Assembly (NCBI RefSeq): GCF_025725725.1
Contig: NZ_CP107020.1
Location: 1,240,001-1,304,000, forward strand
Length of the DNA stretch: 64,000 nucleotides
DNA from: Brachybacterium huguangmaarense
GTDB taxonomy: Bacteria > Actinomycetota > Actinomycetes > Actinomycetales > Dermabacteraceae
Direction: 5' to 3'
Shown here: one piece after another, positions 60,094 through 63,824 of the stretch
Position numbering within the stretch: the stretch's first letter is position 1
Layout: each line of letters starts with the position of its first letter
Notes under the pieces: generated by a model
What the model saw: only the letters and a program-made list of their open reading frames with translations
Told to the model about the DNA's origin: nothing
Database searches by the model: none
Position numbers and translations under genes: made by a program

Positions 60094-61611
60094 ATGCTCG
60101 TCGCCCTCCGCGCCACCCACGAGCACCTCGATCTCGGGGTGCTCGATGCCCTCACCCGGGGATCCGAGCACCTCGGGCACGTCATCGAGAAGCTCAACGC
60201 CCAGGCCGCGGGGGAGGCCGTCGAGGCCGTCGACGTCGCTGCTCTCGAATCCGGCGCCCCCGAGCCCGACACCGTCGAGGCCGCCGAGGACGCGACGCCA
60301 CCGCTCGCGGGCTGGGTCGTCGTCTCCACCTGCAACCGTCTGGAGATCTACCTCGACGCGCACCGCTTCCACGACGGCGTGGATCTCGCCGCGCGCGCCG
60401 TGGCCGCGACGAGCTCCCTGAGCGCCGAGCAGGTCTCGCTGTGCCTCGAGGCCGCGATGGGCGCCCCCGTCGCCGAGCACCTGTACGAGGTGACCGCGGG
60501 GCTGCGCTCGATCGTGCTCGGCGAGGCCGAGATCGCAGGGCAGGTCCATGCGGCGTTCGAGCGGGCGCATGCGGCGGGCTACACCTCGCCCATGCTCAAC
60601 GACCTGTTCCAGATCGGCTTCCGGTACGCCAAGCGGGTCGCCGCGCGCACGCCCGTCGGCGCCGCCGGTCGCAGCGGCGTCGCGATCGCGCTCGACCGCG
60701 CGGCCGACATCCTGGGGCCCCTCGAGCACCGCAGCGTGCTCGTGATCGGCACCGGCGCGTACGCGCGCCTGGGCGTGGCCGAGCTGACGCGGCGCGGCGT
60801 GCGCGACGTGCACGTGCACTCCGCCTCGGGGCGTGCGGTCGCCTTCGCCGAGCGGCAGGGGGTCGCCGCGATCGAGGCGGCCCAGCTGCCCGAGCGGCTA
60901 CGGGAGGCCGACCTCGTGCTGGCCTGCTCGGGCCGCGGCACGAGCCTGTTCCCCGAGCTGTTCCTGCAGGTCGGGCCGACGCTCATCCTCGACCTCGCGC
61001 TGCACTCCGATCTGCACCCGCTCGTCCGGCACCTGGCCGACGTGCAGGTCCTGGACCTGACCGACCTCACGATCGAGGCCGACGACAGCGCGGCGCCCGC
61101 GCTCGCCGCGGCCCGCGAGATCGTCGCCGAGGGCGTCGAGAGCTTCCGCTCGCGCCAGGAGTTCCGGCGCGTGGACCCCGCGATGGCGGCGCTGCGGCGC
61201 AGCGTCAACGAGGCCGCCGACGCCGAGATCGCCCGGCTGCGCCGCGGACGGGCCCAGGACGAGGCGGACGCGCTCGCGGCCGATGTCGAGCGCTCGATCC
61301 GCCGCATCCTGGCCAAGGTGATGCACTCGCCGGCCACGCGCGCGCGACGGCTCGCCCAGGAGGGCAACGCGGGGGAGTTCGTCGACGCCTTCCACACGAT
61401 CTTCGGGATCGACATCTCCGCGCCCGACGGCGAGGTGACGGCGGGACGCGAGGGCGCCCCGGCCGGATGGATGCGCCTGGACCAGACCGTGCCCCCGGCG
61501 CTCGACGGCGCGGGGCTCCCGGCCCCCGACCGCACGGCGCTCGCCGCCGAGCTCGTGCGGGCGGCCGCCCAGCGAGAAGGAGGGGCCGCGTGCCCGATCG
61601 AGACCCCGTGA
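60094..61611 (+). CDS. hemA: Glutamyl-tRNA reductase
   Basis: 505 residues, longer than the usual 420-460. STCNRLEIYLD carries the catalytic cysteine (about residue 82), and LRSIVLGEAEIAGQVHAAFE, RSGVAIALDRAA, VIGTGAYARLGVAEL (NADPH site) and the C-terminal dimer part RRILAKVMHSPATRAR follow. An acidic Ala/Glu-rich insert of about 40 residues stands before the catalytic cysteine, and the usual SHRxAP start motif is changed to ATHEHLDLG. It makes glutamate-1-semialdehyde, the first committed step, and is divergent from the rest of the haem operon. Confidence 0.94.
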   Translation: MLVALRATHEHLDLGVLDALTRGSEHLGHVIEKLNAQAAGEAVEAVDVAALESGAPEPDTVEAAEDATPPLAGWVVVSTCNRLEIYLDAHRFHDGVDLAARAVAATSSLSAEQVSLCLEAAMGAPVAEHLYEVTAGLRSIVLGEAEIAGQVHAAFERAHAAGYTSPMLNDLFQIGFRYAKRVAARTPVGAAGRSGVAIALDRAADILGPLEHRSVLVIGTGAYARLGVAELTRRGVRDVHVHSASGRAVAFAERQGVAAIEAAQLPERLREADLVLACSGRGTSLFPELFLQVGPTLILDLALHSDLHPLVRHLADVQVLDLTDLTIEADDSAAPALAAAREIVAEGVESFRSRQEFRRVDPAMAALRRSVNEAADAEIARLRRGRAQDEADALAADVERSIRRILAKVMHSPATRARRLAQEGNAGEFVDAFHTIFGIDISAPDGEVTAGREGAPAGWMRLDQTVPPALDGAGLPAPDRTALAAELVRAAAQREGGAACPIETP

Positions 61612-61901
61612 CCGAGCAGTCGTCCTCCGCCGTCGAGCCGGGGGAGCGCATGCGCCGCGCCTACGCCGCGCTGCCCGCCCTGCTCGAGCGGCATGAGCCG
61701 ACCGACGCCGTCGTGATGGCCGCGCGCATGGAGCTCGCGGAGGCGTGCGCCGAGGCCGGTGAGCTCGAGAGCGCGCTCTACCAGGCCGACGAGCTGGTCA
61801 AGGACGCCGAGCGCGCCGTCGGCCCCGAGCACGGGACGACCGCGCAGGCCCGGGAGGTCGTGCGGCGCATCCGGCGGCTGGCAGGGGCCGACGAGGTCTG
61901 A
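61590..61901 (+). CDS. Small helical protein of unknown function, cotranscribed with hemA
   Basis: 103 residues. The GTG at 61590 has AAGGAGG six bases upstream and lies inside the 3' end of hemA; a second GTG at 61608 overlaps the hemA stop but has no ribosome site. The sequence is helix-rich (RRAYAALPALLERHEPTDAV, ELAEACAEAGELESALYQAD, QAREVVRRIRRLAG), like a small TPR hairpin pair. I recognise no family. Confidence 0.65.
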   Translation: MPDRDPVTEQSSSAVEPGERMRRAYAALPALLERHEPTDAVVMAARMELAEACAEAGELESALYQADELVKDAERAVGPEHGTTAQAREVVRRIRRLAGADEV

Positions 61902-62068
61902 CGGCCGGGGGCCGACAGCAGGGTGCGCGTCGACCGCGGTGGTCGCGCCCTGCCCTCGATCCCATCGCCGAGGAGGCCACAGGACTGCGGCGCCGCGCGG
62001 AGTCCCGGCGGCGCCCGGGCTCGCGACGGTGCCCGGGCGCGGCCCTGCCCTCATCGAGTTCTGCGTTT

Positions 62069-62107
62069 CGGTCGCTATCAGCGCGAGATAGCGACCAGAA
62101 CGTCGAT
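62069..62107. repeat. Inverted repeat at the head of the 31-bp array
   Basis: CGTTTCGGTCGCTATC and GATAGCGACCAGAACG form a 16-bp stem with two mismatches and a short loop (AGCGCGA). The left arm is the reverse complement of the array unit's GCGACCGAAACGCAGA core. Confidence 0.75.
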
Positions 62108-62231
62108 GTCGATGTCGGGTGGCGACCGAAACGCAGATGTCGATGTCGGGTGGCGACCGAAACGTAGATATCGATGTCGGGTGGCGACCGAAACGCAGAT
62201 GTCGATGTCACGTCGCGACCAGAACGCAGAA
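62108..62231 (+). repeat. 31-bp tandem repeat, four units
   Basis: Units at 62108-62138, 62139-62169, 62170-62200 and 62201-62231. Consensus opens GTCGATGTCGGGTGGCGACC and ends GAAACGCAGAT; the first three differ by one or two bases, the last is more diverged. Period 31 is not a multiple of three and there are no spacers. Confidence 0.92.
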
Positions 62232-62284
62232 CTCAAGATGGGGGCGACGGGCGCGGGCCTGTGCGGAGCGGCGTGGCGCAGAGC

Positions 62285-62417
62285 GAGCCCGGGAGCTGGA
62301 ACCCAGGAAGCCCGAGGTCAGAGTCCCACAGAGCCCGGGAGCTGGAGCCCAGGAGGCACGAGGCCAGAGTCCGATAGAGCCCGACGTCCCCTGGAGCCCA
62401 GGAAGCCGGAGCCGAGG
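62285..62417 (+). repeat. 46-bp tandem repeat, 2.8 units
   Basis: Units at 62285-62330 and 62331-62376 begin GAGCCCGGGAGCTGGA(A/G)CCC and agree in all but about seven positions; a shorter third unit runs to about 62417. Unrelated in sequence to the 31-bp array next to it. Confidence 0.85.
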
Positions 62418-62495
62418 GGATCGGGAGAGCCCTCGCACCGGGAGGCTCGGCGCCGGATTGGCGCCGAAAGGATCGGCGTCGGGTCCCCGCCGGGT

Positions 62496-63824
62496 TCAGG
62501 GGCGGCCGATGGACTGGTAGGTCCATCCCGCGTCGCGCCAGCGCTGCGGGTCGAGGGCGTTGCGGCCGTCGATGATCCAGGGCGTGGCGACGACCTCGCG
62601 CAGCGCGACGGGGTCCAGGGCGCGGAACTGGGCCCACTCGGTGAGCAGGAGCACGATGTCGGCGCCCTGGGCGGCGGTGAGGGCATCGGGGGCGATGGCC
62701 AGGTTGGGGCGCTGGGCATGGACGTTGTCGGCGGCCGCGGGGTCGGTCACGACCACGTCGGCTCCGCGTCCGGAGAGCTTGGAGGCGATGTACAGGGCCG
62801 GGGACTGGCGGATGTCGTCGGAGTCGGGTTTGAAGGCGGCGCCGAGCACCGCGATCCGCTTGTGGGTGAACGTCCCGCCGAGCGCTCGATGGGTCATGTT
62901 GACGACCCGGTCGCGCTGACGGTTGTTGAGGGTGTCGACCTCCCGCAGGAACGACAGGGCGTCGGTGACGCCGAGTTCTCCGGCCCGAGCCATGAACGCC
63001 CGGATGTCCTTGGGCAGGCATCCGCCGCCGAAGCCGATGCCGGCGCGGAGGAACTTCGGACCGATCCGGTCGTCGTAGCCGATCGCGCGGGCGATCGTGG
63101 ACACGTCTGCGCCGCTGGCCTCGCACACCTCCGCGATCGCGTTGATGAACGAGATCTTCGTGGCCAGGAACGAGTTGGCCGATACCTTGACCAGCTCGGC
63201 GGTCGCGTAGTTCCCGACCACGAGGGGGGTGCCTTCCGCCAGCGGCGACGCGTAGACCGCGTCGAGGATCTCCCGGGCCCGGCGGGCCTCGTCGGGGTCC
63301 TCGGGCAGGCCGTAGACGATCCGGTCGGGCCGCAGCGTGTCCTCGACGGCGAAGCCCTCGCGGAGGAACTCGGGGTTCCAGGCGAGCAGGGCCGCAGAGC
63401 TCGCGGCGGCCAGACGCTCGCGCAGACGGGTCGCGGTGCCCACCGGCACGGTCGAGCGGCCCACCACGAGGCTGGGACCGTCCGGGGACCGATCGAGGTG
63501 GGGCGCGAGGGCGTCCAGGGCCGCGTCGACGTACCGCAGGTCCGCGCCAGGCCCGTCGATCTGCTGGGGCGTGCCCACGCAGATCACATGGACCTGCTGG
63601 GTGGCCGCCTGGGCGTAGTCGGTCGAGAAGCGCAGACGTCCCGTGCGCAGGGACTCGGCGATCAGGTCGTCCAGGGCGGGCTCGTAGAACGGTGCCCTGC
63701 CCTCGTTGAGGGCCGCGACCTTGGCCTCGTCGACGTCCAGACCGACCACGTCATGCCCGAGCGACGCCATCGCCGCCGCGTACACCGCGCCGAGATACCC
63801 GCATCCGATGGTTGTGAGTTTCAC
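62496..63824 (-). CDS. ugd: UDP-glucose 6-dehydrogenase
   Basis: 442 residues from the GTG at 63824 (VKLTTIGCGYLGAVYA begins directly with the NAD site). It oxidises UDP-glucose to UDP-glucuronate for surface polysaccharide. STVPVGTATRLRE, NPEFLREGFAVEDTLRPDRI, catalytic cysteine in GIGFGGGCLPKDIRA (about 267) and LGAAFKPDSDDIRQSPA are intact. The frame is open to 63923, but that extension has no homology; TAGAGT on the minus strand (63833-63838) eight bases before the GTG supports this start. No other polysaccharide genes are in view. Confidence 0.95.
   Translation of the reverse strand: MKLTTIGCGYLGAVYAAAMASLGHDVVGLDVDEAKVAALNEGRAPFYEPALDDLIAESLRTGRLRFSTDYAQAATQQVHVICVGTPQQIDGPGADLRYVDAALDALAPHLDRSPDGPSLVVGRSTVPVGTATRLRERLAAASSAALLAWNPEFLREGFAVEDTLRPDRIVYGLPEDPDEARRAREILDAVYASPLAEGTPLVVGNYATAELVKVSANSFLATKISFINAIAEVCEASGADVSTIARAIGYDDRIGPKFLRAGIGFGGGCLPKDIRAFMARAGELGVTDALSFLREVDTLNNRQRDRVVNMTHRALGGTFTHKRIAVLGAAFKPDSDDIRQSPALYIASKLSGRGADVVVTDPAAADNVHAQRPNLAIAPDALTAAQGADIVLLLTEWAQFRALDPVALREVVATPWIIDGRNALDPQRWRDAGWTYQSIGRP

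Follow-up and report, generated by a model that had tools for sequence, protein, structure and literature searches.

Our analysis places the 31-bp tandem array of the window, by which we mean the whole 64,000-nucleotide stretch of Brachybacterium DNA that was analyzed, in a family of palindromes that is dispersed through the host genome and recurs, with other sequences, in further actinobacteria. In 14 genomes, such palindromes stand beside a gene for a predicted AbiEi-Vsr nuclease, and this shared neighborhood suggests a previously unnoticed partnership between a repeat and an enzyme. On balance, we think it probable that a repeat-enzyme system exists and that the array is one of its chromosomal satellites. 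The palindrome family is apparently undescribed: in the open-licence literature that we searched, we found no description of it and no link between a DUF559/AbiEi-type nuclease and palindromic repeats.

The array in the window

The array occupies positions 62053-62237, between two convergent genes (Table 1). On its left, an ORF of 97 aa ends at 61901, leaving 151 bp to the palindrome; on its right, the stop of a UDP-glucose dehydrogenase gene is at 62496. Tandem Repeats Finder reported a repeat of period 31 at 62091-62230 (4.5 copies, 88% matches), and its score of 203 was the highest among 47 rows for the window. The core GACNNNAACGNNNNNNTCGAT is perfect at 62093, 62124, 62155, and 62186, carries two mismatches at 62217, with steps of 31 bp throughout, and stands inverted and perfect at 62053-62073. 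With one further conserved C added to the core, the arm measures 22 bp, and each 31-bp unit consists of this conserved arm and a 9-bp spacer whose sequence is locus-specific. The layout is one inverted arm followed by five direct arms at 31-bp steps. When up to two mismatches were allowed, the window held 24 occurrences of the core where 6.26 were expected, a count that none of 100 shuffles reached.

The initial annotation was right about the reality of the array, its place between convergent genes, and its noncoding nature, since 31 is not a multiple of 3. Its borders have to be moved, as the feature begins 16 bp earlier and finishes 6 bp later than proposed, and the units that it described as lacking spacers contain one of 9 bp between conserved arms. 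The inverted repeat that it saw is present, but the length of 16 bp was wrong: the repeat is one arm of a 61-bp palindrome (62053-62113).

This palindrome scored 63.8 bits with the R1 covariance model (E 6.6e-16) and 51.9 bits with R3, the window copy belonging to the training sets of both models, and its fold has an energy of -31.9 kcal/mol. In several other CAGA-type copies the inner stem is CCATC/GATGG. The RNA fold lies 5.7 sd below shuffles on the + strand and 2.0 sd below on the - strand. The idea that the outermost arm is the best partner of the head was rejected on identities to the head of 17, 21, 20, 21, and 19 of 23 for copies 1-5. A coding repeat was rejected on its period, overlapping ORFs being mechanical, and a CRISPR-like array was rejected because the 9-bp spacers are common to all units within a locus. 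Rfam searches of window positions 61800-62600 and of 10 further loci returned only sub-threshold miRNA-type matches. No nuclease gene adjoins the window array, and 29 loci holding the neighboring genes in other genomes of the genus contained no clear palindrome, with two marginal matches. The same gap also holds a second tandem repeat, unlike the array in sequence, at 62285-62411 (period 46, 2.7 copies, 81% matches).

Table 1. Features of the array and its neighboring genes in the window
Feature	Positions	Strand	Remarks
ORF of 97 aa with no match in Pfam, lying downstream of the gene for glutamyl-tRNA reductase; left neighbor, convergent	61608..61901	+	
Palindrome of 61 bp, composed of an inverted arm, a loop of 7 nt, and a direct arm; modelled with 27 positions on each side	62053..62113	.	
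Inverted arm ("head"), CGACCGAAACGCAGAACTCGAT on - strand, CAGA-type word	62053..62074	-	
Palindrome loop, within CTATC/GATAG inner stem	62080..62086	.	
Direct arm 1, the palindrome's right arm	62092..62113	+	
Tandem arm 2, +31 bp	62123..62144	+	
Tandem arm 3, +31 bp	62154..62175	+	
Tandem arm 4, +31 bp	62185..62206	+	
Tandem arm 5, +31 bp, degenerate end AACTCAAG	62216..62237	+	2 mismatches
UDP-glucose/GDP-mannose dehydrogenase, convergent right neighbor	62496..63824	-	Pfam PF03721, PF00984, PF03720

The palindrome family in the host genome

A consensus search, as the initial annotation had advised, found 67 exact copies of the core and none of its reversed pattern in the 3.26-Mb host genome, along with 0-4 exact copies in each of 37 other genomes of the genus. 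A single occurrence, named there as grounds for refutation, does not apply to a core that is repeated throughout the genome. Pairs of an inverted and then a direct arm were detected automatically in the host clusters with offsets of 37-41 bp allowed. Among 50 such pairs, 32 were at 38 bp, mostly with the word AACGTGC, 16 at 39 bp, mostly with the word AACGCAGA, and 2 at 41 bp. Four pairs (601946, 628386, 2055034, and 3227673) were discarded by eye as spurious, which left at least 46 palindromes with two sequence words, and R1 gave 92 both-strand matches. The number of extra arms per palindrome ranges from 0 to 11; they follow at steps of mostly 31 bp and sometimes 30 bp, and the spacers between tandem arms vary in sequence among loci, hardly in length. 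A hairpin inside the single GTGC-word unit seemed by eye to covary; it misfits the CAGA word and was left uncounted.

One host cluster (L033, C1:3145166-3145743) carries four palindromes within macro-repeats, 161-164 bp long, that follow one another in tandem, and another (L021, C1:600270-601293) has macro-copies 347-348 bp apart. The counterpart of the latter in B. nesterenkovii (L092) is shorter; since it lies where a draft contig ends, assembly collapse is a possible cause of its shortness. The two regions are 91% identical, the hemA region only 75%, which hints at exchange between lineages. In addition, two 1248-bp elements, IS3-like by their ORFs and 99.9% identical (C1:361672-362919 and 1331987-1333234; L019 and L028), each have a palindrome cluster no more than about 1 kb away, and the first sits inside an 8-bp tandem repeat, (GAGGCACT)n.

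Pairing between the arms

The two arms change together. In an alignment of the 46 host palindromes with five from three other genomes, 73.2% of cells were paired; shuffles gave 66.1%, and slid pairings no more than 41.4%. The covariation score was 0.250 against at most 0.097. RNAalifold predicted only 7 pairs (-0.95 kcal/mol) for this alignment; together with the 73.2% pairing, this indicates that the host copies are imperfect palindromes. Two wider alignments were built from copies selected by stem-expecting models, which biases the following pairing figures toward a stem. With 56 copies (48 from other genomes of the genus and 8 from the host), 89.9% of cells were paired, 23 of 26 pairs showed compensatory change, and covariation was 0.609 against at most 0.141 for slid pairings. 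With 55 copies, 29 of them from outside the genus, the corresponding values were 92.1%, 24 of 26, and 0.712 against at most 0.142. Over the alignments, slid pairings were at most 45% paired. Orthologous pairs agree with the covariation: one double change from C-G to T-A distinguishes L147 from L153, and the orthologous 60-mers of L140 and L148 are identical. Compensatory changes in palindromes can also come from template switching, without selection.

The RNA-level tests used 44 oriented hairpins, none of them from the host genome. Only 12% of the 12 nt that follow them are T, so the U-tract expected after the hairpin of a rho-independent terminator is absent, and G.U pairs did not significantly exceed A.C mismatches (30 versus 25, p=0.30). 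These results speak against a classic terminator and offer no support for a constraint at the RNA level.

Distribution and dispersal

R1 matches with E of 1e-3 or better occur in 28 of 38 genomes of the genus, although some matches (L119, L120, L122, and L123) are probably false positives in coding sequence. A sample of 40 copies, drawn from the best matches listed for eight further genomes of the genus, pairs at 19-27 of 27 positions; 26 are 60 bp long and 14 are 61 bp, in a check that allowed 56-65 bp with a finding model trained on the 60/61-bp length. The words of these lineages include GAGAGGTACGAAACGG, GAGATCTGCGTTCGGG, and GAGGTGTACGTG. The same 60/61-bp geometry with other words is found genus-wide and patchily in other Micrococcales. 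When 297 genomes from the order were scanned more strictly, at E 1e-7 and with 18 scored candidates per genome, 22 genomes in 8 of 94 genera gave a match. When 137 candidates were scored at E 1e-4 in each of 40 chosen genomes, a sample that included known carriers, 17 had matches and 23 had none, and both-strand matches reached 106, 88, and 86 per genome. Presence is patchy and copy number is high in carriers. All copies that we analyzed beyond the host genome are among the best-scoring matches.

The palindrome is dispersed as a self-contained unit. Copies from three groups outside the genus have sharp information borders and average identities of 75, 82, and 77% (maxima 98, 97, and 90%), and their 60-nt flanks average 27-34% (maxima 43-53%), apart from one left-flank pair in the genus g11 at 80%. 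Furthermore, the two arms of one orthologous palindrome (L137/L154) are swapped relative to conserved flanks, which indicates that palindromes can apparently flip.

Tandem arms repeat head-to-tail at a fixed period that is specific to the lineage, namely 22, 31, or 41 bp, values near two, three, and four helical turns. A search for arm copies at 15 to 74 bp beside palindromes found 24 at 31 bp, 1 at 30, 5 at 62, and 5 at 72-73 in the host genome, 7 at 41 bp in G007, and 7 at 22 bp in G261/G299. Copies at 31 bp also occurred in G034 (two), G012, and G009 (one each), the last with another at 62 bp. The sampled copies of G139, g11, G011, G014, G023, and G033 had no tandem arms with this probe; G011 has a 31-bp copy by a separate scan. 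Shuffled probes, five for each and on the left side only, gave 1 match in all.

A nuclease gene beside the palindromes

The first clue to an enzyme came from four loci outside the genus, where genes between two palindromes matched MTES_1575 at E 5e-7 to 8e-5. We then queried every ORF of at least 60 aa in the collected loci with these proteins and the host homologue, and found the nuclease gene in 14 genomes, at hairpin loci only. Across the 129 hairpin loci, which total 462 kb, a profile of the 14 recovered those 14 genes; it recovered none in 580 kb of other sequence. The latter comprised a 464-kb control, consisting of the window and 20 regions of 20 kb chosen at round coordinates in the host and five other genomes, and 116 kb from 36 loci fetched for other reasons. 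A palindrome of the family lies upstream of the nuclease gene in 14/14 cases and on both sides in 11/14; in G012, G034, and G023 it is upstream only, even with longer flanks. Palindrome-gene-palindrome units span 1.0-1.7 kb. The upstream gap is 53-54 bp in G051, G069, G071, G139, and G217, which represent two families and for which start codons were chosen by hand.

In the host loci examined, the CAGA word of the array had no nuclease beside it; the only nuclease gene found near host clusters is flanked by the GTGC word. Its three palindromes are weak with R3 (E 4.5e-6, 8e-5, and 0.015, the last of which escaped a second scan) and clear only with R1, a model that was trained on them. Across genomes, protein distance was correlated with palindrome distance (Mantel r 0.31, 38 of 5000), a relationship that is confounded by ancestry.

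The nuclease proteins are 288-342 aa long (n=14). In a Pfam scan of 13 of them, the MTES_1575 matches (five proteins) all fell below Pfam's curated cut-off, one protein only (L185) passed that of DUF559, and the host protein had no match; NCBIfam, searched with 6 of the 14, and PHROGs, with 4, gave none. PADLOC AbiEi profiles matched the first half of all four proteins scanned (best E 3.9e-9 to 3.4e-5). Comparisons with a structure model of the host protein (pLDDT 90.7) point to two domains. Residues 205-308 match I-Bth0305I (3r3p; Z 12.4, 2.2 A, 95 aligned) and Vsr (1cw0; Z 9.9, 99 aligned), and residues 3-200 match the AbiEi structure 6y8q (5.8 A, 168 aligned) with a Z of 7.8, a middling value by the tool's own grading. 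Rv2827c is also matched (Z 6.1). The best Foldseek E was 0.04, and the best PDB match by sequence was 3hrl, an endonuclease-like protein (E 0.038). E208, D240, H257, and D266 are invariant in the 14 sequences and fit an EDxHD-type site. The model describes a two-domain protein, with an AbiEi-antitoxin-like part followed by a Vsr-type nuclease part. A passage in PMC3710099 assigns MTES_1575 to the Vsr-family REases. For the other part, PMC3985639 reports that the AbiEi protein from Streptococcus agalactiae binds its own promoter at inverted repeats that extend to 23 bp, and PMC7319586 reports binding of Rv2827c to two sets of inverted repeats.

The association was also seen at loci that had been picked by protein alone. 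A tblastn search with one g11 nuclease returned seven records from a plasmid collection and one from a phage collection, of which six were examined and two further Tsukamurella records omitted. Five of the six loci have a palindrome within 200 bp of the nuclease homologue, by a criterion fixed after a first look and with a background of 0.075 per kb in a 400-kb control. Palindromes lie on both sides of the homologue in Arthrobacter sp. ERGS1:01 and StoSoilB13-2, and downstream of it in "Bacteriophage sp." MT837503. In Arthrobacter sp. StoSoilB13-1 the palindrome is downstream and an imperfect one is visible in the upstream sequence; in Tsukamurella tyrosinosolvens it is upstream, and inspection by eye shows another, imperfect palindrome at the stop. 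The Nonomuraea locus, a partial protein match, has none within 200 bp. R3 recognized only MT837503 among the six (E 6.4e-13), because the words of the other loci differ. Upstream of the nuclease gene, ERGS1:01 has three arms exactly 31 bp apart. Since Tsukamurella belongs to another order, the pairing of palindrome and nuclease may extend beyond Micrococcales.

Gene ends and alternative origins

Palindromes stand mostly at the 3' ends of genes, often within 25 nt of stop codons. With genes called by a simple codon-usage script, the gaps that hold them were 9 convergent, 7 tandem, and 3 divergent in the host genome (n=19) and 28, 14, and 6 in the genus (n=48), against a background of 6, 9, and 8 for gaps of at least 62 bp in the window (n=23). 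Outside the genus, 57 copies were divided into 24 convergent, 30 tandem, 2 divergent, and 1 at a contig edge, and nine more from further genera (counted with four of the 57) were convergent or tandem. The median distance to the nearest stop was 6, 18, and 22 nt in the three groups outside the genus, 86 nt in the genus, and 248 nt in the host genome. At two g11 loci (L181 and L184) a palindrome also stands between the nuclease gene and a small gene, which in L184 is DUF503. This arrangement indicates that neighboring genes can each end in a palindrome. At L289 (G023 C1:2910000-2916000), palindromes at 2454 and 3422 bracket a gene that is methyltransferase-like by sequence, not the nuclease.

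Such placement is what a functional gene-end hairpin would show, be it a bidirectional terminator or a 3'-end stabilizer of mRNA, with the nuclease gene incidental and the tandem arms due to slippage. The strong + strand fold and the bracketing of the small gene of L181 and of the gene at L289 agree with this explanation, as does the report, in part of PMC6060812, that E. coli inverted repeats beside stop codons mostly belong to intrinsic terminators as parts of them. Yet we regard it as unlikely, given the missing U-tract and G.U excess, the near-identical 60-mers at unrelated sites, and the palindrome upstream of one gene family in 14 of 14 cases. To our knowledge, one would not expect a near-identical 60-mer to recur in ordinary terminators at unrelated sites, nor such terminators to mark one gene family so regularly.

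The near-identical copies at unrelated sites, the sharp borders, and the compact palindrome-gene-palindrome units could also be read as MITE-like relics of an ordinary insertion sequence, with the arms as terminal inverted repeats and the nuclease as a passenger. This we find improbable. We noticed no transposase between palindromes in a nonsystematic look at inspected loci, the host IS3-like element was rejected as mover since its ends are unrelated to the arms, and PF01797 (Y1 transposase) had no match in the host genome and matched 5 of 14 control genomes. Furthermore, blastn of an Arthrobacter-type palindrome matched nothing in plasmids or phages, that of the window array nothing in plasmids, and two generic patterns had no exact match in viral contigs. 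Least probable of all are sites for a chromosome-organizing or regulatory protein of which the AbiEi-nuclease is a mere local user: periods near whole helical turns and spacers that vary in sequence, hardly in length, would suit them, but only three periods are known, and a lack of matches in 23 of 40 chosen genomes at equal search depth would be unusual for the sites of a core chromosome protein.

A proposed model for the repeat and the linked enzyme

We favor a model in which the palindromes are the DNA sites of the linked protein and the dispersed copies its REP- or MITE-like satellites. The steps of the model differ in how far we trust them. It is likely that the AbiEi-like part binds arms or palindromes; the presence of such a part, together with a palindrome upstream of the gene in all 14 cases, makes arm recognition the simplest reading. 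The arms would serve it as half-sites in inverted orientation, in line with the binding of AbiEi antitoxins to long inverted repeats, and the upstream palindrome would be an operator through which the protein controls its own gene. The four extra arms of the window, at 31 bp or about three helical turns, would bring several half-sites together on the same face of the DNA.

More doubtful is the step in which the nuclease mobilizes palindromes. It might act at palindromes that are extruded as cruciforms or as single-strand hairpins, and copy or fix them at new sites, as RAYT proteins supposedly do for REPs. Insertions would survive where promoters and genes are unharmed; if they are tolerated only there, palindromes would come to lie between convergent genes and just after stops, where the hairpin may secondarily insulate converging transcription. 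We tentatively entertain a new actinobacterial selfish element, in which an AbiEi-Vsr nuclease bracketed by palindromic sites spreads 60-bp, non-autonomous palindromes toward the ends of genes and amplifies half-sites into arrays with helical phasing, and in which each lineage may carry its own word.

The initial annotation had offered three possibilities for the array. As a variable-number locus, it is borne out between loci, which differ in their extra arms, and one common locus is shorter in B. nesterenkovii. As a structured RNA, it has a stem that covaries, but without G.U excess over A.C or a T-rich tail an RNA role is not supported. A protein-binding array is the best supported of the three, given the fixed periods, the free spacer sequence, and the linked gene for an AbiEi-like nuclease.

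Comparison with known systems

Several known systems resemble parts of what we describe. The AbiEi-like N-terminal part and the long inverted repeats upstream of the gene recall AbiEi and the abiE operator; unlike there, the protein is fused to a nuclease, and the repeats also occur downstream and at dozens of other sites. The catalytic domain has, in the model, the fold of Vsr, of I-Bth0305I homing endonucleases, and of MTES_1575/DUF559 REases, and the four residues invariant in the 14 sequences are a further resemblance. It differs from the Vsr/I-Bth0305I group in being encoded by a free-standing gene beside palindromes, in its AbiEi-like DNA-binding part, and in MTES_1575 scores below the Pfam cut-off. 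If the link is true, it would offer a DNA target for at least some AbiEi/DUF559-type nucleases now annotated "hypothetical protein" or "DUF559 domain-containing protein," and a candidate partner protein for dispersed actinobacterial palindromes. Because nature provides many pairs of protein and site with different words, recognition, mobility, and effects on gene ends are directly testable.

Among repeats, the BOX elements of Streptococcus pneumoniae, as outlined in part of PMC3049150, are interspersed, form stem-loops, and have a variable tandem module, boxA-boxB(n)-boxC. The palindromes described here are likewise modular, with between 0 and 11 extra arms in tandem. They differ from BOX elements in that the arm of the palindrome itself is what is repeated, with a fixed period, and in having a linked nuclease gene.

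A parallel in organization comes from REP/REPIN sequences and their RAYT proteins. RAYTs are encoded by a single gene that is flanked by REPs, with words specific to the lineage, and REP hairpins are GTAG-headed, with the GTAG foot at the base. Here, too, intergenic palindromes are dispersed, units form inverted pairs, one gene is flanked, sequences are lineage-specific, and one genome holds many copies (46 kept of 50 pairs; 92 R1 matches). Unlike in REPs, the stems are about 26 bp long and the base is of TCGAG type, mostly nTCGA(G/C) in the alignments, with no GTAG foot. Roles of REPs are discussed in part of PMC12306157. Unlike a RAYT, the enzyme here is an AbiEi-Vsr nuclease, and the host genome has no Y1_Tnp (PF01797). 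If its mobility is true, the system would represent an analogue of REP/RAYT built on an unrelated enzyme.
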